64,000 nt of DNA. Origin: Actinomycetes bacterium (GTDB lineage Bacteria; Actinomycetota; Acidimicrobiia; Acidimicrobiales; Acidimicrobiaceae). This document shows positions 6,278 to 14,040 of this stretch, one piece after another; the first letter of the stretch is position 1; the number at the start of each line of letters is the position of its first letter. The notes beneath the pieces were generated by a model. It did no database searches. It was not told where the DNA came from and worked only from the letters and a program-made list of their open reading frames with translations. A program made the position numbers and the translations under genes. The DNA lies in the NCBI GenBank assembly GCA_021819725.1, contig JAKAQR010000010.1, positions 1 to 64,000 on the forward strand. Reading direction: 5' to 3'.

Positions 6278-7062
6278 ATCGCCAGTTTAGGAGATGGACC
6301 GCAAAAGGTCACCATCATCGATCGCTCTCGAGCCAGGAAACTTGACGATCTTGCCCTCACGAAGGTCCTGCCTCTTTCAACATCCGATCACCCTCCCACA
6401 AGTTTTGCAAAGACTCGACCTCGGATTTGTAACTTGACCAAACAGCAGCGTCGTCTCGCATCTGTCCTCGTTGTTTCTGTCAATCAGAGGTGTGTCGTGT
6501 ACGAGGGGCCGTCCATTGTCAATTTGACCCTGGAGAATGGAGTACACGGTAGTGTGGTTATTCTTTCATGACTAGCCGACTGTCCTGATTGCACATTCCA
6601 TAGCCCTGAAATGGTACTTCCCGTAAGAATTTGGAACGAGTTTCCAAAATCTCCGGGGATAGTGGACAGCGTAGCTCATGAGGGTGCCTCGAGATCGTTG
6701 CAAGAGCAAGCATCTCCCCATCAACACATACCGGTCGAGACACGTATTAGGTGAACTAGGTGCGAGTGGCCTTTCAACGGCCCTCTCTGAAGCGATTCCG
6801 CATCCTCCGAGATGATCACCGGAGAGGCAATTGGCATCTTGCGATGATCGCGCAAAAAGTAGACGACTTGACCTGGCACTTGTAGCTTGGGTACGTAGAC
6901 GCATCGCTAGATCCGGTCGAGACACTGAACGATCGAGAATCACATGGTTATCGAGGAGATCATGCACGTTTGCAATGTCGCCCACATTCGACCTTTACCA
7001 GGGTAAGGTCAGTTCTTGGTGAGTTTCGCAAACGTGGATGGGGCAATTTCGCAAACAGCCCT
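6278..7062. other. 785-bp stretch without a confident gene
   Basis: No intact gene is recognisable. On the minus strand around 6781-6906 one frame reads with good codon usage (RCVYVPKLQVPGQVVYFLRD and onward) but is bounded by stops, so a degraded gene is possible. Near 7024-7056 a short direct repeat resembles an insertion-sequence end. The right border is the left attachment repeat of the integrated element. Confidence 0.4.
7024..7056. repeat. tandem 10-bp direct repeat, possible insertion-sequence end remnant
   Basis: TTTCGCAAAC occurs at 7024-7033 and again at 7047-7056, a period of 23 bases, with GGATGGGGCAA between. Repeats of this size and spacing are typical of IS21-family ends, but no transposase is attached here. 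It lies just outside the left attachment repeat. Confidence 0.3.
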
Positions 7063-7107
7063 TGGTGGAGACGAGGGGACTCGAACCCCTGACCTCCTGC
7101 GTGCAAA
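7063..7107. repeat. attL: 45-bp copy of the tRNA-Ala 3' half
   Basis: Identical to 13965-14009. It corresponds to the tRNA from the anticodon loop through the T arm and acceptor strand to the encoded CCA. The match breaks at the base after it (T here, G in the intact tRNA), which places the left end of the element here. It is the displaced original 3' end of the gene. Confidence 0.92.
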
Positions 7108-7215
7108 TCAGGGATACCCTGTCTTAGGGTGTCTTATGCAGTCTAACCGGGTGTATGCAAACTACCGTAACGCCAAGATATGAGCCGTTCTCCCAGTTCA
7201 AAGGTGATGACACCT

Positions 7216-7399
7216 TAGGGGCCACGGTAGGGGCCATGGAGCTTGATTTAGGTCATCGTCCATGGTTGAAAAGGTATAGGGGCCAGCGTAGGGGCCACGG
7301 TAAGGGCCACGGATTCTATGCAACGACTTGTAAACTCCCTGTTTAACGCACTGATTAGCTCGTCATCGAACCCGACCGAACTACACGTAGGGGCCACGG
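7216..7399. repeat. left arm-type direct repeats (TAGGGGCCACGG family)
   Basis: Six copies of a 12-base unit lie just inside attL: 7216-7227 and 7228-7239 in tandem; 7277-7288, 7289-7300 and 7301-7312 in tandem; and 7388-7399 alone. Variation is confined to one or two bases. Two more copies lie inside the other end at 13887-13910. All are in the same orientation. Such repeats next to both attachment sites are the expected arm-type binding sites of a heterobivalent tyrosine integrase. Confidence 0.8.
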
Positions 7400-7431
7400 A
7401 GCTACTGTCGTAGGAGCTACGCAATTGTTTG

Positions 7432-7444
7432 CAGTTATGCGTAT
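7432..7444. repeat. 13-bp sequence shared with the right end of the element
   Basis: CAGTTATGCGTAT occurs here and, in the same orientation, at 13930-13942. Both copies lie inside the element next to the arm repeats. A role as an excisionase, accessory-protein or additional integrase site is inferred from position only. Confidence 0.5.
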
Positions 7445-7515
7445 GATCGCCAGAGCTAAGCTCCCCCCAGCTCATGGCCTATATTGTGGTGTGAGGGTCG
7501 AGAGTCTTTCTGTTG

Positions 7516-8037
7516 TCAGTCCTGTGACGTTGGCGGCAAGCCAAGCTCAGAGCGCACTATGTTCGCGTCGTTGTTAGTGACCGAGGCCGCTTGCTCTAGC
7601 TGAGTAACCCACGATGAAAGACTAAAGACGTTAGCGCTTGTCACTGAGTTCAGTACTCCATCCATCGAACTAGCCGCGGTCGTCAGGTTGTGGAGCGCTG
7701 TCGCCGCCTTGGGGTACTTGACCGCAAGTGCATTCAACTCGTTCTCGCCTTTGGTAAGCGCTGAGTTAACAGGTGCGAGGGCCGCCGTAACCGTGCTTGT
7801 CGGCGTACTGTTCGTCCAACCGTTCGCCTGCTTGCCGAGTGCGGTGAGCGCCGAGTTCATCGGACCTATTGCAGCGGTGTAGACCTTGGCCGCCTGTGCC
7901 TCAGTCATCGCAACGGGTGCCGCGCTTGGGGTCGTTGTCTTCTTTGTTGTTGTCGTCGTAGCGCTTGATTTCGCAGCCGTTGATCCGCACGCTGCGAGCA
8001 CAAGCGCACTCGCCCCGATCATCAACAGTTTTCTCAT
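7516..8037 (-). CDS. small lipoprotein of the integrated element
   Basis: Predicted lipoprotein of 173 residues. The ATG at 8037 is chosen because GGGAAGG lies 9 bases upstream and the signal peptide then begins at the first residue (MRKLLMIGASALVLAACGS). The lipobox LAAC gives a mature N-terminal Cys near residue 17. A Thr/Lys/Ser-rich linker follows, then an Ala-rich, mostly helical domain with no Cys and no recognised family. It is the last minus-strand gene before attL. Phages and satellites often carry surface lipoproteins that block superinfection; that role is only a guess here. Confidence 0.75.
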   Translation of the reverse strand: MRKLLMIGASALVLAACGSTAAKSSATTTTTKKTTTPSAAPVAMTEAQAAKVYTAAIGPMNSALTALGKQANGWTNSTPTSTVTAALAPVNSALTKGENELNALAVKYPKAATALHNLTTAASSMDGVLNSVTSANVFSLSSWVTQLEQAASVTNNDANIVRSELGLPPTSQD

Positions 8038-8114
8038 TGTTTCCATCCTTCCCAGAGCGAGCAGACCCGCTCGACCGTCTCCAAGCATACTCTCAGGTGC
8101 CCGGGCGTGTATGT

Positions 8115-8552
8115 TCACCGCTTGTTGCGCCAAGTGCCTTCCTCAAGTTCCCTAAGTTTGCGCTCTGCATCGGCGATAAGCTCATCGACCAATTCCTCGG
8201 TGATCAACATCGGTGGCTTCGGCGGCACCACATCAAGCGCGTAGAGCTTGGCCTGGCGCTCTAATAGTCTCGCCGCGACCTCGATTGCCCGCGGTTCGCC
8301 TCGCTCTATTCTCGGCCAGAGCTTGGACAAGAGTAACCGGATCGTCGCACCTTGCTCAGTCCGCAGTAGCTCCACGTCTTTCGCTGGGATCTCTCGCAGC
8401 GCAGACGTGACCAACTCGTGAGCTGTGCTGTCCGCGCACCCCATCGCATCCGCGATATCTCGATACGTCATCCCTGTCAAGCGCAGTTCAAGCGCGCGTG
8501 CCCTTCTCTGCGCTACTTCAAACTTGGCAGCGTCTCGCTTCCCGGTGCTCAT
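8115..8552 (-). CDS. HTH protein resembling phage small terminase (TerS-like)
   Basis: Protein of 145 residues. The start ATG at 8552 has GGGAGGG 6 bases upstream and overlaps the stop of the preceding gene (ATGA). An N-terminal helix-turn-helix is visible (LTGMTYRDIADAMGCADSTA), followed by a long helical segment. The part RIERGEPRAIEVAARLLERQAKLYALD matches the pattern common in small terminase-like proteins of actinobacteriophages (WP..RGD..A...VLRI.ERRA.LLGLD). The small terminase recognises packaging sites on DNA. No large terminase is present, as in satellites that redirect a helper's packaging motor. A plain DNA-binding regulator is the alternative. Confidence 0.65.
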   Translation of the reverse strand: MSTGKRDAAKFEVAQRRARALELRLTGMTYRDIADAMGCADSTAHELVTSALREIPAKDVELLRTEQGATIRLLLSKLWPRIERGEPRAIEVAARLLERQAKLYALDVVPPKPPMLITEELVDELIADAERKLRELEEGTWRNKR

Positions 8553-8710
8553 TGTTCGCCCTCCCACTGTTCGGCTTCGCCACGCTCAGCATCCCGTTCC
8601 AAGCCATCGAGGAACTGCGCCCAGATCCGCTTGTGAATCGCGTCGAGCCGCTCTTGATCGCTACCGCTTGACTGGCCCCTATCTACTGGCTGGCTATCCC
8701 TATCCTTCAT
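8549..8710 (-). CDS. small element protein, 53 residues, unknown function
   Basis: The start ATG at 8710 is preceded by GGAGG at 6 bases, a strong ribosome binding site. The stop overlaps the start of the TerS-like gene by an ATGA, so the two are translationally coupled. The product is highly charged (Lys/Asp/Arg at the start, Glu/Asp-rich end) with a helical middle around RLDAIHKRIWAQFLDGLERD. No family recognised. Confidence 0.7.
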   Translation of the reverse strand: MKDRDSQPVDRGQSSGSDQERLDAIHKRIWAQFLDGLERDAERGEAEQWEGEQ

Positions 8711-8891
8711 TTTCGACCTCCAATCGTGCACCTCTGAGTGCCTCCCAGGCCGCCGCTATCTCCGTGAACTTCTCGACAAGTTCGTAGAACTCCGCAAAGT
8801 TCACCGACTCATCAAACCGCGCTTTCTTGACTTCCACGATTGCCCGATGCGCCGCTATCTCAGCTTCCAAAATCTCCAGCTCGCTAGCCAT
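8700..8891 (-). CDS. small element protein, 63 residues, coiled-coil-like
   Basis: The ATG at 8891 has GGAGG 5 bases upstream and is preferred over the upstream ATG at 8903. The product is almost wholly helical and charged, with heptad-like repeats of Leu, Ile and Ala (SELEILEAEIAAHRAIVEVK), suggesting a coiled coil. It overlaps the neighbours on both sides. Function unknown. Confidence 0.65.
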   Translation of the reverse strand: MASELEILEAEIAAHRAIVEVKKARFDESVNFAEFYELVEKFTEIAAAWEALRGARLEVENEG

Positions 8892-9030
8892 TTCGGCCTC
8901 CATACACGATCCGTAATACTTCGCGGTACAACTCGTCACGTACTTCCTTCGGCGCGGCTTGCGCTGCTCGCCAGCTGTTTAACGCTTCGCAGAACTCGCG
9001 CAACTCCGTCTCTCCGTTTGTCGTTCTCAT
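8884..9030 (-). CDS. tiny element protein, 48 residues, unknown
   Basis: An open frame starts at ATG 9030 with GGAGGG 4 bases upstream and ends at a TAG at 8884-8886. The start overlaps the stop of the preceding gene (ATGA), and the end overlaps the start of the next gene, so it fills exactly the gap in a chain of coupled genes. The product is charged and helical (NGETELREFCEALNSWRAAQ, then PKEVRDELYREVLRIVYGG). No family recognised; the gapless tiling is the main evidence that it is real. Confidence 0.65.
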   Translation of the reverse strand: MRTTNGETELREFCEALNSWRAAQAAPKEVRDELYREVLRIVYGGRNG

Positions 9031-9383
9031 TGATCCCTCCGTGCCCTCGGTGGCCGTCCCAGCGCGCCTCTTAGGCGACTCAAATCGCCACTCGGAGCAA
9101 GTTGGGGTTTCGGTAGATTGTCCTCTTCTTCATGCACCCACACCTCGATCAGCGCATCCCACAACCACGTAGCATCGACCGGCTCAGGCAGCCCGAAAAG
9201 ATCGCGGTGATAGTTCAACACATGCGCCCACGAGTCAACCACGCTTCTCGCGAGATCAAGCGCCAGGGCTGCGATGCTGTAGAGCGTTCCCGAGGTTCCG
9301 GTTAACTTTGCCCCATGGATGGTGATGAGTTGGTACTTCTCGCATCCATTCGTGTCTTTGTCCGGATCGTAGTCAGCTTGCAT
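9027..9383 (-). CDS. element protein, 118 residues, unknown
   Basis: The ATG start at 9383 lies inside the end of the primase gene (11-base overlap), and the stop overlaps the start of the next small gene by ATGA. The product begins with an acidic stretch (DYDPDKDTNG), has a central Ala/Leu-rich helix (LYSIAALALDLARSVVDSWA), a Trp-rich segment (DATWLWDALIEVWVHEEE) and a basic C-terminus. No domain recognised. It is probably in one transcript with the replication gene. Confidence 0.65.
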   Translation of the reverse strand: MQADYDPDKDTNGCEKYQLITIHGAKLTGTSGTLYSIAALALDLARSVVDSWAHVLNYHRDLFGLPEPVDATWLWDALIEVWVHEEEDNLPKPQLAPSGDLSRLRGALGRPPRARRDQ

Positions 9384-11958
9384 CGGCCAACCTCCTAGCG
9401 GCGCATGGCTTGCACAACGTGCCGGTTGAGTTGACTAGTCGCCGCCCACACTCCGCGCAATCACGCGGCTCAGGCTTTGGTTCCTTCTTGAGTTGTTCCC
9501 GTACTCTGTCTACTTGCGTTAGCTCGGTCATCTGTGCTGTCTCCTTCGTTACGTAATGGTTCATCGCTACTACTTCCTCCGTTGCTTGCTCGTTTCCGCT
9601 TTCCTCTGCAGATGTGTTGACAAACGTTGACAATGTTGACAAAGGCCTCTGACCTGCGGTTATGTCCCCATTCGGTGTTGACAAAGGTGTTGACACTGTC
9701 AACAGTTGCTCGCCACCGCGCCAATTCGAGCCGCGCGAATCCAGGCGCTCGATGAGGCCTAATTTCTCAAGTTGCTCAGCCGCCACGTCAAAGCGAGCGC
9801 GCAGACCTCGAAACACCGACCGGTACGCATCGCGTGCGGTGAACTCTTGGCGATGCTTCGCCCACTCCCATAATCTCGTAGCGTCTCCTGAGAGCGCTGG
9901 CGCTACGTCCTCGCCGCCATACTCACGTCTGGCATGCCATGCGAGCCACTCACCAATCGCAAGCGCCGCGCCAATTTCATCGGCTGTAATGCGGCCTGCG
10001 AGGTTGCCGGTGGCCATGGCGTGGATAGTTGCCGCAATGCGCACGATACGCCCAGCCTGCTTGCCTGCCCAACCGTTCAGAATGTCACCCGAGTAGAGCG
10101 CGGTCATCTCGGACTCTATCTCATCCTTCATGGCCACGAAGAGCTGGAATGCCGCCGCGTCGAGTCTCATCGGCTCTGGCTGCTCATCTGCATAGGCTTC
10201 GCTGAATAGCGCAGTCAACCGCTCACACCAAGCGCGGCTAAGTGACTCTGGCATCTGCTCACCAAAGCCAAAGCGAACGCCAACCAATGACTCAGGACGA
10301 ACCGGACAGAGCCTCGCGAGCAACCCTCGACCTCCTGCTTCCGCGTCTCCTGCCACTTGTGCCCAAGCGCTCGGCTGGCCCATGAGCAAGAGCGGAACCC
10401 GCAGCTCAGTAACCCGAATCTCGCCCCGAGTGACACGGTGCGATGTATAGTGGCCAGCGTCGTAACCTGCGAGCAACACCTCGTAATTTGTCCCTGCCTT
10501 GTTGTAGCGTCCAAGATCACCGAAAACGCCCCCCGCCTCATCCGATACGACCGCGATGCGTGCGATGTCCTCCCCTTGCGCCGCTGCTAGCGTTTCCAAC
10601 GCTTCTGCCGTAGCCTTGCTCGCCACTGCCGAGAAGCGCGCGGGCACTTGGTGCGACTCCAATCGCGCCAGTGCCTCTGCGAATGCTGTGCCACCATCTT
10701 TGCGAGCTTGATCACGCGCGAGCGCTAGTAGCTCGTGTTCAGCTTTGGTCTTGGCGATCTCATCATCTCGACCTTGGCGAGCTGCCTTCTCAGCGTCCCA
10801 TATCGGCCCCATTGCCGCGCTTAAGACTGGTGTTTTCCGCTCCGCTGGCGGTGCGATGACCAAGAGGTGAAGCACCCCAGGCTCGCGCCAATCCTGCGTA
10901 ATCTCCACCGTCGCGCCGAGTCCGACGGGTATACCGGCCACGCCCAAAGCGGTTGCGAAGGCGAAGCCTGGCGAGACCTGGTAAGCACTCGCCAGAGCTT
11001 TAGAGTATTGACCAAGTAGGCCGGTGCTCCGCAGAATCTCGCTCAGATCTGGCTCAGGATCGTATTTGTCAACAGGTGCAGTGTCCGTGTCAACACTTTT
11101 GTCAACACCGATTTGCACTGTTTCCCCTGGTAGATCGGTTTTGTCAACGTTGTCAACGTTTGTCAACACGTCTAGCCCGCCGAGCATATCCTGCCAATTC
11201 TGAGGATGATGAGCTATCGCATCGCTCGCATCTTTGCAACCATCAGGACAGTGCAGCTCTCGCAACGTAAGCGCTCCCAAGTACCCCTGTTCCCTCAAGG
11301 ATTCAGCCACGGCCTTAGCGTGATTGCGGCCTGGTTCGTCTCGATCAGCCCAGATTACGATATCTTTGAACCCCGCTACGATGATCACACGAGAGTGGCC
11401 AGGTCGCCACTTCCCAGCGCCCGCCGCATTGCAAGTCGCCGCCGTGCCCTGCGACCAAAGAGCGAGTGCATCCTTCTCGCCTTCGACGATCACCAACGGC
11501 AACTCTGGATTGTTTTTGATCGCCTCGGTCAGTTCCGGCAAGATGAAAGGTAGGGAGCGATCCTCGGGTGCGAGATCTTTCAAAGACCAAGCCCAGCCAC
11601 CGTTGCCGTCTGGCCTGCGCTGACTGAACCCCTTCGGTTGATACCGCACCGCTTGAAACGCGAGTGAGCCGTCAGCTCTCCGGTAGTCGTAAGTCGCTAC
11701 GATTCTCTTCTCTGGCCTCGGTTTCTCCTGCTCATTGAACAAATCGCGAGCTTCCAGATCAAGAGCAGAGAGGATCGCGTCAGTACTGCATAACGCAAAG
11801 CAATTGAGCAAGACCCGACCATCTGCGCCCACCGAGACGCTGAGCGATGGGTTGTTGTCCTGGTGAGCCGGACACGTAACCAAATATCCCTCGTGGTTTG
11901 AGTTGATCTTTGAACCGTGCGCCGAGAGTGCGCCGAGAACACGGTTGAGGGCCGTCAC
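9373..11958 (-). CDS. primase/TOPRIM and DUF3987 helicase-like replication protein
   Basis: Large protein of 861 residues with a GTG start overlapping the excisionase stop. A CHC2-type zinc site is formed by C29, H32, C53 and C57. A TOPRIM domain follows near residues 150-230, with VIVEGEKDA and WADRDEPG giving the acidic metal-binding residues. The DUF3987 helicase-like region begins near residue 310, with a degenerate nucleotide-binding loop APPAERKT. The C-terminus carries a CxxC...CxxC zinc ribbon (CAECGRR...CKPC). Such proteins prime and unwind DNA for phages, satellites and plasmids. Two low-complexity linkers, Val-Asp-rich and Leu-Ser-Thr-rich, are encoded by DNA iterons (see separate entries), suggesting that the origin lies inside the gene. 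Confidence 0.85.
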   Translation of the reverse strand: MTALNRVLGALSAHGSKINSNHEGYLVTCPAHQDNNPSLSVSVGADGRVLLNCFALCSTDAILSALDLEARDLFNEQEKPRPEKRIVATYDYRRADGSLAFQAVRYQPKGFSQRRPDGNGGWAWSLKDLAPEDRSLPFILPELTEAIKNNPELPLVIVEGEKDALALWSQGTAATCNAAGAGKWRPGHSRVIIVAGFKDIVIWADRDEPGRNHAKAVAESLREQGYLGALTLRELHCPDGCKDASDAIAHHPQNWQDMLGGLDVLTNVDNVDKTDLPGETVQIGVDKSVDTDTAPVDKYDPEPDLSEILRSTGLLGQYSKALASAYQVSPGFAFATALGVAGIPVGLGATVEITQDWREPGVLHLLVIAPPAERKTPVLSAAMGPIWDAEKAARQGRDDEIAKTKAEHELLALARDQARKDGGTAFAEALARLESHQVPARFSAVASKATAEALETLAAAQGEDIARIAVVSDEAGGVFGDLGRYNKAGTNYEVLLAGYDAGHYTSHRVTRGEIRVTELRVPLLLMGQPSAWAQVAGDAEAGGRGLLARLCPVRPESLVGVRFGFGEQMPESLSRAWCERLTALFSEAYADEQPEPMRLDAAAFQLFVAMKDEIESEMTALYSGDILNGWAGKQAGRIVRIAATIHAMATGNLAGRITADEIGAALAIGEWLAWHARREYGGEDVAPALSGDATRLWEWAKHRQEFTARDAYRSVFRGLRARFDVAAEQLEKLGLIERLDSRGSNWRGGEQLLTVSTPLSTPNGDITAGQRPLSTLSTFVNTSAEESGNEQATEEVVAMNHYVTKETAQMTELTQVDRVREQLKKEPKPEPRDCAECGRRLVNSTGTLCKPCAARRLADAS
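9616..9703. repeat. iteron cluster A (GTTGACA) inside the primase gene
   Basis: GTTGACA begins at 9616, 9626, 9635, 9677 and 9689 on the plus strand. An inverted copy at 9697-9703 makes a perfect palindrome, GTTGACACTGTCAAC, at 9689-9703. The spacing of about 10 bases in the first three copies puts them on one face of the helix. In the protein they encode repeated Leu-Ser-Thr. Confidence 0.75.
11067..11167. repeat. iteron cluster B (TTGTCAAC) inside the primase gene
   Basis: TTGTCAAC or GTGTCAAC occurs at 11067, 11088, 11099, 11141, 11150 and 11160 (start positions), inverted relative to most of cluster A. In the protein these encode repeated Val-Asp in different contexts. Conservation of the octamer while the reading frame differs between clusters argues that the DNA word is selected, as for replication-protein binding sites. 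Confidence 0.75.
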
Positions 11959-12158
11959 GGCTGCGCCTCGCTACTGAGATTCGCAATGAAGGCCGCAAGG
12001 TCTGAGGACCTGATAAGTCTGCGGCTCCCAATGTAGACCGAGCGCAAATCTCCGCGGCTCAGAATGCCGTATAGAGTGGCGCGTGACAAGCGCAGAGCCT
12101 GGGCGGTTTCGGAGACGGTTAGCAGCTGATCGAATGGTTGATATTCGTTTTCGGACAT
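11955..12158 (-). CDS. excisionase-type HTH protein of the integrated element
   Basis: Small DNA-binding protein of 67 residues with a MerR-like/HTH_17 fold: LLTVSETAQALRLSRATLYG, then a wing and recognition part RGDLRSVYIGSRRLIRSSDL. This is the common excisionase family that bends DNA and drives element excision with the integrase. The ATG at 12158 is chosen because AGGG lies 6 bases upstream; an in-frame GTG lies at 12176. Its stop overlaps the GTG of the primase gene, so it heads the leftward operon and may also act as its regulator. Confidence 0.82.
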   Translation of the reverse strand: MSENEYQPFDQLLTVSETAQALRLSRATLYGILSRGDLRSVYIGSRRLIRSSDLAAFIANLSSEAQP

Positions 12159-12176
12159 GAGGTTCCCTATGCCCAC

Positions 12177-12290
12177 CTCCTAGCCAAAGCCAATCGGTCG
12201 AGCGATAGGGTCCTTTTGGGGCCCGCAAACTTTCGTTGTCTATATAATAGCATCCCAACTAGATCATTTGTACGCGATTAGACTATAGGG
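12177..12290. promoter_or_regulatory. divergent promoter region of the element
   Basis: This gap lies between the leftward excisionase operon and the rightward zinc-ribbon gene. A TATAAT-like hexamer is at 12243-12248 and its complement reads TATTAT nearby on the other strand. No convincing -35 hexamer was found for either direction. Confidence 0.35.
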
Positions 12291-12752
12291 ATGAGCCTCA
12301 AGTGCCCGAAGTGCAGCACCACGTTAGCGAGGGTGCGACCGATCAAAGACGGAATAGTCGAGGTGCGAACGAAGCGCATGCAGCGCCGTCCAGCCGATAC
12401 GTACCGCGCTGAGGGTCTGCTCGTATTTGACAATGAGGCATCACGTACTCAATGGCAAGCGATCACTGAACCGACGCGCGTCGAGTGCTGTGGCATCGTT
12501 CAGACCGCATCGCCCGCAGCGCTCCTAAAGCGCGCGGCTTTGGCTCCCTACGTCAAACCTCGATGGATGACCAAGATTGAAGCACTAATAGCCGCCGCCG
12601 ATGGTGAGCTGGTTCACGTGAGCATCAACGAGTCAACAGGTGATCAGCGAACCCTGAGCGCCGGGATCGTCGACCGCGAAGAGTCCGCCAAAACTTATCG
12701 GGACGGGGCCGCGGCCCCGCTGTTCATGCCCTCAGCTTCCCAAGAGCCTTGA
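12291..12752 (+). CDS. element protein with N-terminal zinc ribbon, unknown function
   Basis: Protein of 153 residues, the only plus-strand gene of the element. The N-terminus has a CxxC pair (LKCPKCSTTLARV) and a second Cys pair near residues 66-67 (VECCGI), which could bind zinc. The rest is a mixed alpha/beta stretch without a known motif. It is divergent from the excisionase operon and its last 21 bases overlap the 3' end of the convergent integrase gene. Position between xis and int suggests a regulatory role, but nothing in the sequence proves this. Confidence 0.65.
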   Translation: MSLKCPKCSTTLARVRPIKDGIVEVRTKRMQRRPADTYRAEGLLVFDNEASRTQWQAITEPTRVECCGIVQTASPAALLKRAALAPYVKPRWMTKIEALIAAADGELVHVSINESTGDQRTLSAGIVDREESAKTYRDGAAAPLFMPSASQEP

Positions 12753-13868
12753 GCTAGAGTCGATCGCCACTCGCAAATCCTCAACTGCCAAATGAGCGTA
12801 GATGGTGTCGGTGACCGCGGTCGAACTGTGACCCAGCACCCGAGAGATTACTGGCATCGGGACACCTTGACTCAACAACAACGACGCGGCCAAATGCCGC
12901 AACTCGTGTAGGTGTCGCTCTCCAAGGTCTGCACTTCGAGCGAGACGCGCGAACTTATGGCTCACCGTATCTGGGTCGAGCGCCTTGCCAAAATCACTCA
13001 AGAACATATAGCCGGACTCCGCGCGAATCCCTAAGCTGAGCAGGCGTTCTACCTCTGCCCTCTGTGTGACCCTGTGAGCCTCTAGGACCGCCGCCAGCGG
13101 CTCCGGGACAGGTATAACCCTCTGACTTCTTGCAGTCTTGGTGGGTCCTTCTACGACGCTATCCCACGCCTTCGAGCGAGACTTGTTGATCGTGAGGGTG
13201 CGTGTGGTGGGGTCGTAATCGTCCCAACGCAGAGCCAGCGCCTCACCTCGCCGAAGCCCGAGAGTAGCCAACGTAAGGTACAAAGGCCCGAGGCGTTCTG
13301 TCTCGCAAAGCCTCTTGAATCTCTCGATCTGAGCTGGTGTCCATGCGGTTAGCTCCTTGCGTTCCTGCTTGATCGCCCGCGTGCCCTTTGCAGGATCAGT
13401 TACGAGCAGTCCTTGGCTCACTCCCCAGGCGCAAGCGGCCCTGAGCACGGTGCGCGCAATCTGGCGCGAGCGCGCCGAGCCCTCAACCTCCCCGATAGCA
13501 CGATCAAGAGTCGCTGAGCGAAGCTCCGTTAGCTTTGCCCCTGAGATAGGTGTAAGCTTTTCCACCGCCCATTTGTATTGACCTTGCGTAGCTTGTGCCA
13601 CGTCAGGTAGTTTCACCTCAAGCCACGTGGCCAAGAGATCGCCCAACGTCGCGGGTCGAGACTTAGCTAGTCCTTTGTCCCTCTCAGCGCGAAACTCCTT
13701 GAGCGCTTGCTCGGCTTCTTGCTTGGTGGTGCATACGCGCGTCCGCGTCCTCGACTTGCCAAGCTCATCTGTCCATCGGAGCACGGCTCGATACTCGGTC
13801 GGCGAGTAATACTTGACCGATCCCATCCCTCTAGCCCTGCGCGTCTCTGGCTGTCTCATGCTGTCCAT
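12732..13868 (-). CDS. tyrosine site-specific integrase
   Basis: Phage-type tyrosine recombinase of 378 residues. An N-terminal arm-binding domain (SVKYYSPTEYRAVLRW near residues 17-32) and a SAM-like core-binding domain (about 75-160) precede the catalytic domain. The catalytic set is complete: R206 (LGLRRGEAL), K244 (PTKTARS), H321 and R324 (HELRH), H347 (LGHSS) and nucleophile Y357 (TIYAHL). The gene starts 97 bases from the right attachment repeat. Two arm-type repeats lie between the start codon and that site, so integrase binding probably represses its own promoter. It inserts the element into tRNA-Ala. Confidence 0.93.
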   Translation of the reverse strand: MDSMRQPETRRARGMGSVKYYSPTEYRAVLRWTDELGKSRTRTRVCTTKQEAEQALKEFRAERDKGLAKSRPATLGDLLATWLEVKLPDVAQATQGQYKWAVEKLTPISGAKLTELRSATLDRAIGEVEGSARSRQIARTVLRAACAWGVSQGLLVTDPAKGTRAIKQERKELTAWTPAQIERFKRLCETERLGPLYLTLATLGLRRGEALALRWDDYDPTTRTLTINKSRSKAWDSVVEGPTKTARSQRVIPVPEPLAAVLEAHRVTQRAEVERLLSLGIRAESGYMFLSDFGKALDPDTVSHKFARLARSADLGERHLHELRHLAASLLLSQGVPMPVISRVLGHSSTAVTDTIYAHLAVEDLRVAIDSSSRLLGS

Positions 13869-13886
13869 TGTACCCCAGGAATTCGT

Positions 13887-13910
13887 TAGGGGCCAGCGTA
13901 GGGGCCACGA
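13887..13910. repeat. right arm-type direct repeats
   Basis: Two tandem 12-base units, TAGGGGCCAGCG and TAGGGGCCACGA, match the six units near the left end. They lie between the integrase start codon and attR. Confidence 0.8.
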
Positions 13911-13929
13911 AGCCTCAGATTCTCCTATC

Positions 13930-13942
13930 CAGTTATGCGTAT
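13930..13942. repeat. 13-bp sequence shared with the left end of the element
   Basis: CAGTTATGCGTAT, identical and in the same orientation as 7432-7444, located 22 bases inside attR. Confidence 0.5.
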
Positions 13943-13964
13943 AGCGCTCTGAACTGGGGTTATA

Positions 13965-14009
13965 TGGTGGAGACGAGGGGACTCGAACCCCTGACCTCCT
14001 GCGTGCAAA
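13965..14009. repeat. attR: 45-bp repeat within tRNA-Ala
   Basis: Identical to 7063-7107 over 45 bases. It marks the right end of the integrated element; the tRNA stays intact after integration. Confidence 0.92.
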
Positions 14010-14040
14010 GCAGGCGCTCTTCCAGCTGAGCTACGCCCCC
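13965..14040 (-). tRNA. tRNA-Ala(UGC)
   Basis: Full cloverleaf of 76 nt including an encoded CCA. The anticodon loop TTTGCAC carries TGC, and the acceptor stem has the G3-U70 wobble pair that identifies tRNA-Ala. The 3' half (13965-14009) is also the right attachment site of the integrated element, so the functional 3' half is now element-derived. It probably once followed gyrA together with the tRNA-Ile at 19835. Confidence 0.95.

Follow-up and report, generated by a model that had tools for sequence, protein, structure and literature searches.

The question raised by this locus is why a replication gene should carry, within its own coding sequence, a dozen copies of one short DNA word arranged in two opposed clusters. 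The gene (9373..11958, minus strand) encodes an 861-aa primase-helicase and belongs to a 6947-bp integrative mobile element (7063..14009) in a 64,000-nt stretch of an Acidimicrobiaceae genome (contig JAKAQR010000010.1, positions 1 to 64,000), the whole of which is called the window here. The explanation that we favor, with a probability of roughly two in three, is that the clusters are iterons bound by the element's own initiator, and that gene and sites form a rep-ori cassette of the kind found in Staphylococcus aureus pathogenicity islands (SaPIs) and phage-inducible chromosomal islands (PICIs), with inverted arms placed around the DNA encoding the DUF3987 helicase and a winged-helix segment.

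The window contains 20 copies of the heptamer GTTGACA, versus 7.51 (standard deviation 2.73) in shuffled sequence, the maximum in 100 shuffles being 14. Twelve of the 20 copies fall in two clusters 1.36 kb apart inside the replication gene, and there is no other copy in the 6947-bp element. Cluster A, the downstream arm (9616..9703, plus strand), consists of five forward copies at 9616, 9626, 9635, 9677, and 9689 and a reverse one at 9697, and cluster B, the upstream arm (11067..11167, minus strand), of six reverse copies at 11067, 11088, 11100, 11142, 11151, and 11161. Nine of the twelve are the exact octamer TTGTCAAC, the other three deviating at the first base. Across the genome (2.88 Mb), this octamer is found 103 times versus 81 for a reversed-word control, at most a slight excess for the genome as a whole; the 1.55-kb cluster region alone accounts for 9 of the 103, so that the density is local. 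The original prediction, which was made from the DNA letters, described two opposite clusters of twelve copies in all, a spacing of about 10 bp, and a perfect 15-bp palindrome made of two iterons, and all of this holds: the palindrome (GTTGACACTGTCAAC) is at 9689..9703, and within groups the steps are 8-12 bp, the spacing of about one helical turn expected of iteron origins. What it missed is that the start-to-start steps of cluster A (10, 9, 42, 12, and 8) and cluster B (21, 12, 42, 9, and 10) mirror each other. The two clusters form one long inverted repeat, whose arms measure 34 nt (94% complementarity) and 30 nt (90%). As it had further observed, the word is read in different frames, giving five Val-Asp and one Leu-Thr in cluster B and four Ser-Thr, one Val-Asn, and one Leu-Thr in cluster A, and when the protein is held fixed none of 1000 synonymous-codon shuffles of the gene contains any heptamer 12 times (maximum 8).

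The clusters occupy particular places in the encoded protein. As annotated with Pfam, PHROGs, AlphaFold, and Foldseek, its order is a DnaG-type primase with Toprim, the DUF3987 helicase (aa 327-678; 9925..10980, minus strand; Pfam PF13148, 3.4e-67), a winged-helix segment (about aa 690-738; 9745..9891, minus strand), and a C-terminal tail. Cluster B encodes the linker between primase and helicase (aa 264-297) and cluster A the linker behind the winged helix (aa 752-780). In the AlphaFold model, which has nine sequences and a mean predicted local distance difference test (pLDDT) score of 60, values below 50 extend over aa 261-300 and 754-830, and both linkers are probably disordered. The order of helices and strands in the same model suggests the position of the winged helix, our candidate for the iteron-binding domain. 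Foldseek returned several winged-helix proteins for this model with probabilities of 0.99-1.00 but E values of about 0.2-0.6, the aligned range not being printed, and found the N terminus to resemble DnaG and T7 gp4 primase. No relative came from a search of viral sequences that used the 861-aa protein as the only query, and a sequence search of solved structures gave no match.

Two related genes, in genomes G001 (same genus; the product is the 876-aa protein P0003, which NCBI assigns to Ferrimicrobium sp., so that the genus is probably Ferrimicrobium) and G019, are 57% and 43% identical to the window gene, and GTTGACA is absent from both. In each, the linkers that carry clusters in the window gene carry an inverted pair as well, built from CATCGCT in G001 (steps 9, 9, 42, 12, 19 and 9, 11, 12, 43, 9, 9) and from ATTGACA in G019 (steps 9, 9, 42, 11, 20 and 20, 12, 43, 9, 9, 12), the second word being one base off that of the window and the first unlike it throughout. 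Clusters of this kind appear in shuffles at 0.03 per locus, and with the proteins fixed none of 1000 synonymous shuffles of either gene matches the observed word copies. To the original prediction the DNA word itself seemed conserved, and it would have been given up if homologues kept the linkers and lost the words. The word is indeed lost, yet another shared word stands in its place: what the relatives keep is place, spacing, inverted pairing, and core, and the two clusters change their word together. The core is DNA enclosed by the iterons of each cluster, and its conservation was seen in this one family. Core A (9650..9667, minus strand; it contains CATAACCGCAGGT) is an 18-nt run identical with G019, the longest between these two genes, and core B (CTACCAGGGGAAACAG; 11118..11133, minus strand) is common to the window and G001 at 16 of 16 nt, again the longest run of the pair, with core A third (13 nt). 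Core B is not an identical run between the window and G019. Identical codons at conserved residues amount to 42% for window/G001, 40% for window/G019, and 37% for G001/G019. That the longest identical runs are at the cores suggests that these, chiefly core A, persist while the iterons change. A fuzzy search for core B gave mostly chance-like hits among the matches listed.

The arrangement extends beyond this family, as seen when the flanks of the DUF3987 domain, about 600 nt on either side, were searched for words shared in inverted or direct orientation and the result was compared with shuffles. In a first set of 32 genes, inverted clusters were found in five at 0/200 shuffles (window, G001, G019, L394, and L390) and direct ones in one (G019). 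In a second set of 44 distinct genes (44 of 47, three having short flanks), seven were inverted at 0/300 shuffles and two direct (G019 and L498), G019 being among the direct cases with an upstream arm that holds both orientations. L394 has no separate row in the second set because the duplicate filter used a stretch identical in L394 and L475, and it is the eighth gene with inverted clusters (0/200 shuffles). L390 (genome G859), significant at first, was not counted; its first cluster is inside the helicase domain, and the second set does not have it among its seven. In all, inverted clusters made of seven different words surround the helicase and winged-helix segment in eight DUF3987 genes, the additional words being TGACAC in G839 (L394) and G951a (L475), TGACGC in G951b (L480), CGTTAC in G955 (L476), and TACGAC in G962 (L486). 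The most telling cases are G955 and G962, in which three words each lie at -60, -52, and -44 from the domain, and again at +304, +312, and +320 or +303, +311, and +319 behind it, although the two words differ. In four genes (G839, G951a, G955, and G962) the stop codon falls within the downstream arm. The N-terminal partner varies, from the DnaG-type primase of the window to RepB_primase plus HBD in G839, DUF3854 in G951b, HBD alone in G955, and none recognised in G962. When upstream and downstream arms were aligned all against all (8 x 8), inverted scores averaged 66.5 (lowest 46) within a gene and 21.6 across genes, and direct scores within a gene averaged 22.6; the exception concerns a shared word, the upstream arm of G951a fitting the downstream arm of G839 better than its own.

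These same two genes, L394 (gene nt 1397-2447) and L475, have an identical block of 1051 nt over the DUF3987 domain. It begins 8 nt past the last upstream iteron and ends ahead of the winged helix and downstream arm; identity between the genes is 67-89% in the part that precedes it, counted from about aa 124, and 82-96% in the part that follows. This may be a domain exchange or an assembly artefact, the latter being possible because the G839 and G951 genomes are fragmented and incomplete.

If the winged helix reads the word, it might be expected to diverge with it. Between genes with unlike words, identity is lower in the winged helix than in DUF3987 (0.47 vs 0.62 for window/G001, 0.44 vs 0.61 for G955/G962), and for the same word the two are close (0.86 vs 0.88 for the window and P0002, the word of P0002 being inferred from the protein).

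Arrays of this general type are also present in phages and plasmids. Viral contigs contain at least 120 loci with GTTGACA triples, but the reversed control word is equally numerous (at least 120), and the mere count of triples therefore proves nothing. Among the matches listed, both orientations occur at 60 of 120 GTTGACA loci vs 11 of 120 control loci, with the limit that the former do not count as independent cases, since as many as 41 of the 120 have a common open reading frame (ORF) family near the array. The 78 distinct GTTGACA arrays show phasing at 10.5-10.75 bp whether copies have the same orientation (R*sqrt(n) of 5.05) or opposite ones (4.33), and the control word is phased at 12 bp in the same orientation. 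Ten large ORFs, scanned from 100 near 26 two-orientation arrays, comprise three VapE, two DUF5906, two DUF3987, one SNF2 helicase, one weak AAA, and one matchless protein, and six of the seven in the first three classes are within about 0.35 kb of the array, one DUF3987 ORF being 1.9 kb away. When VapE relatives were fetched with one VapE protein as the starting point and without reference to the word, 25 of 63 loci had a heptamer array of at least 5 copies, the other 38 having none at that threshold; several of the 25 are near-duplicates. All 25 arrays are at the 3' end of the gene, and they use eleven words, twelve with the weak L340, including GTTGACA, GTAACTT, TGATACA, GTAGACA, GTTTACA, and GCCTACA. 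Across these loci (L312-L374) words switch between relatives, mostly with a TGT or ACA end, and spacing is partly kept. Two named YfjI (DUF3987) records likewise have an array only at the 3' end, GTTCTGT in a Streptomyces plasmid and CTGTCCC in a Tsukamurella plasmid, and three further named records have only weak or distant arrays. Four phage contigs (L016, L014, L069, and L105) carry two inverted GTTGACA clusters 54-144 bp apart that no ORF of at least 60 aa spans, a compact version of the window arrangement. Many loci within L009-L128 that share ORF families have a single GTTGACA triple with steps of 8, 10 or 10, 8, often within a small open frame.

How does the arrangement compare with known systems? 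In lambda, the analogy chosen in the original prediction, the origin iterons lie within the coding sequence of the initiator gene O; unlike the window, however, this is one cluster in one orientation with an AT-rich side, and O has no helicase domain. Satellite phage P4, whose alpha protein is a primase-helicase, resembles the window in having two separate initiator-bound iteron regions on one genome, ori and crr, both of which are needed, and we know of no inverted arms inside its initiator gene. A closer parallel than lambda is the SaPI/PICI rep-ori, an initiator helicase with its own iterons, as described in the available portions of the sources (PMC6092414 and PMC7581432; the same scope applies to the other papers cited here). 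SaPI Rep helicases recognise iterons via their C-terminal domain, with the origin directly downstream of the gene (PMC6092414), and PICIs have two sets of short iterons 3' of rep around an AT-rich region, their sequence being element-specific (PMC6092414, PMC7581432). The window element is similar as an integrated, satellite-like element with an integrase, a small helix-turn-helix protein, and a primase-helicase, and as the bearer of two short-iteron sets whose word varies by element and which would be recognised C-terminally. It differs in that its sets do not surround an AT-rich region 3' of rep: they are intragenic, around the segment coding for helicase and winged helix, 1.4 kb apart, inverted, and without an AT-rich core. 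There is also likeness to the small PICMI elements of Vibrionaceae, modelled as an integrase, an AlpA regulator, a DUF3987/DUF5906 primase, and a Fis regulator (PMC10803314), a paper in the available main text of which the term "iteron" is absent. Integrase and DUF3987 are present in the window element, as is a small helix-turn-helix protein whose G001 counterpart matches HTH_17 (1.8e-12); no Fis match was found among ten proteins scanned with Pfam, a set that did not include every ORF of the element. In the open-licence literature, searches on DUF3987 (most subscription papers being outside their scope) gave no description of an origin or iterons, paired intragenic arms were not found (including in the available parts of PMC7145576, PMC6092414, PMC9942202, and PMC7581432), and a literal search for the word gave no phage-origin paper among the matches listed. 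What is of a known kind is the SaPI/PICI rep-ori; what is new is that two inverted arms enclose the helicase segment, lying in part or entirely within the gene, and that the word switches in concert.

We propose the following scenario. The winged helix behind DUF3987, a position that fits the C-terminal recognition of SaPI Rep, would bind the iterons in each arm (triplet, core, iterons), and the bound initiator would load helicase complexes face to face or loop the two arms together, so that replication of the excised element is started, and probably limited, in this way. Binding domain and sites would be inherited together as one 1.5-kb block, which could account for wholesale changes of word with position, spacing, and inverted pairing kept. 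The original prediction of an origin inside the initiator gene stands in that DNA-level iterons lie within the replication gene; that they mark the origin is what we infer as most likely. More tentatively, and at somewhat short of even odds, DUF3987 helicase and winged helix may be a self-addressed replicon cassette carrying its own sites as two inverted arms, homogenised by copying, whose address word switches whole between relatives and which joins different primases, bringing its origin with it. DUF3987 helicases are found in phages, satellites, and plasmids, and for some of them the arms would offer an origin definite enough to test. They would also supply a rule of position, about 20-150 nt ahead of the domain and 215-430 nt behind it, by which the origins of related elements could be located without prior knowledge of the word, and, in the word series, natural material on the joint change of specificity of an initiator and a dozen sites.

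Several observations weigh against this explanation. The AT-rich unwinding region that should adjoin an iteron origin was not found when the element was scanned: neither the cores nor the DNA that separates the two arms has one. The 60-bp stretch richest in AT (63%) begins at 12233, away from both clusters, and the best such stretch at a cluster reaches 57% (11063). No paired arms were seen in 37 of the 44 DUF3987 genes, and a strict heptamer count over 143 loci, which called for three or more copies in each cluster and a distance of 300-4000 bp between clusters, gave four inverted pairs and direct ones just as often (five), which confines paired arms to a subset of DUF3987 genes; the inverted pairs have 8-12 copies in all and are all in DUF3987 genes, and the direct ones have 6-10. 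For G839, the best-word synonymous test was negative (241/1000). The longest identical run between G001 and G019 is 14 nt outside the cores, with core A second (13 nt). Low pLDDT is not peculiar to the linkers, helicase aa 442-565 also being below 50, and opposite-orientation pairs of the control word (37 only) peak near 11 bp as well. Word and VapE protein covary weakly: in a set of 20 sequences, one of which was mistranslated to 2 residues, the observed value was reached in 10 of 500 permutations, and the best window is the C-terminal end beside the array. The winged helix does not always follow the word: the gap is small for window/G019 (0.47 vs 0.50 in DUF3987), reversed for G951a/G951b (0.45 vs 0.40, words one base apart), and present despite a common word for G951a/G839 (0.88 vs 1.00), a pair that may have exchanged its DUF3987 block. 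Finally, spacers agree between arms at 11/13, 13/16, 9/10, and 15/15 positions (48/54 over four arm pairs), more than binding to a 7-mer alone demands, although the choice of arm ends by similarity itself raises the agreement; this points to copying of arm onto arm besides selection on the word.

Other explanations account for part of these data. The clusters could be initiator-bound control sites acting in copy-number control, handcuffing, or autoregulation, with the origin elsewhere, for example in the promoter region near 12.2 kb, which is richer in AT and where the AT-richest stretch of the element (12213-12302) is found; the need of P4 for both ori and crr offers a precedent. However, this stretch is free of iterons, since the element has no GTTGACA outside the clusters, and the arrays of the VapE relatives and of the two YfjI records are at the 3' end of the gene, the place of the PICI origin in the available text of PMC6092414, so that we regard separate control sites as unlikely. 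The arms could instead be borders at which DUF3987 modules recombine, in the manner of the terminal repeats of mobile cassettes, a proposal that draws on the same arm-flanked module standing beside different N-terminal partners, on the agreement of spacers as well as words, and on the start of the 1051-nt block so close to the upstream arm of G839 and G951a. Yet the cores of the two arms differ and thus provide no common crossover region, no dedicated recombinase was seen, and the block, itself possibly artefactual in two fragmented genomes, stops before the winged helix and downstream arm; exchange borders are accordingly the less probable of these two.

Pairing of the arms as RNA or single-stranded DNA in a long-range stem, with complementarity rather than protein binding under selection, would explain gapless complementarity of up to 36 nt that includes the spacers, but it has no need of a repeated word within one arm and is at odds with the inner upstream triplet of G019, turned relative to the downstream arm, with single turned iterons in G001, G951b, and the window, and with the phasing of the phage arrays to the helical turn, all of which makes it very improbable. 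Hardly credible is the view that the repeats are merely repetitive linker peptides with no function as DNA: they do sit in low-confidence, probably disordered linkers of the model, but this view is contradicted by the use of one word in different frames and on both strands, by the 0/1000 synonymous shuffles in three genes, and by the arms that cross a stop codon in four. An invertible switch was also considered and judged unlikely; site-specific inversion calls for identical crossover cores, and those of the arms differ.

The element itself is bounded by exact 45-bp direct repeats, attL (7063-7107) and attR (13965-14009), the latter within a tRNA-Ala (TGC) gene that serves as the integration site (13965..14040, minus strand, by ARAGORN; 13968-14040 by the Rfam tRNA model). 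On contig C17 of the sister genome G004 the site is empty, the counterpart of the left flank (about 7005-7112) overlapping that of the right flank (from 13965 on). As in PICIs, a specific attachment site accompanies an integrase, here a 378-aa tyrosine recombinase (12732..13868, minus strand; Pfam Phage_integrase 2.8e-20, phrog_1 1.7e-63). The positions of the repeats rule out the iteron clusters as the attachment site. The element of G001 lies between two tRNA-Ala (TGC) matches (L508, 5235-5305 and 11442-11517), and the integration site thus seems common to both elements. The small helix-turn-helix protein (67 aa; 11955..12158, minus strand), the stop codon of which overlaps the start of the replication gene, is presumably excisionase/AlpA-like, and a second helix-turn-helix protein of 150 aa (8115..8567, minus strand; HTH_23 9.8e-07, phrog_645 4.4e-23) we take to be small-terminase-like, the PHROG being labelled "Rnase E"; it is the only feature here that would bear on the helper-phage induction and packaging typical of PICIs. 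To the left of the element, a stretch of about 210 bp (6776-6986) has five matches of 86-87% identity in the sister genome G003 and is probably a dispersed repeat.

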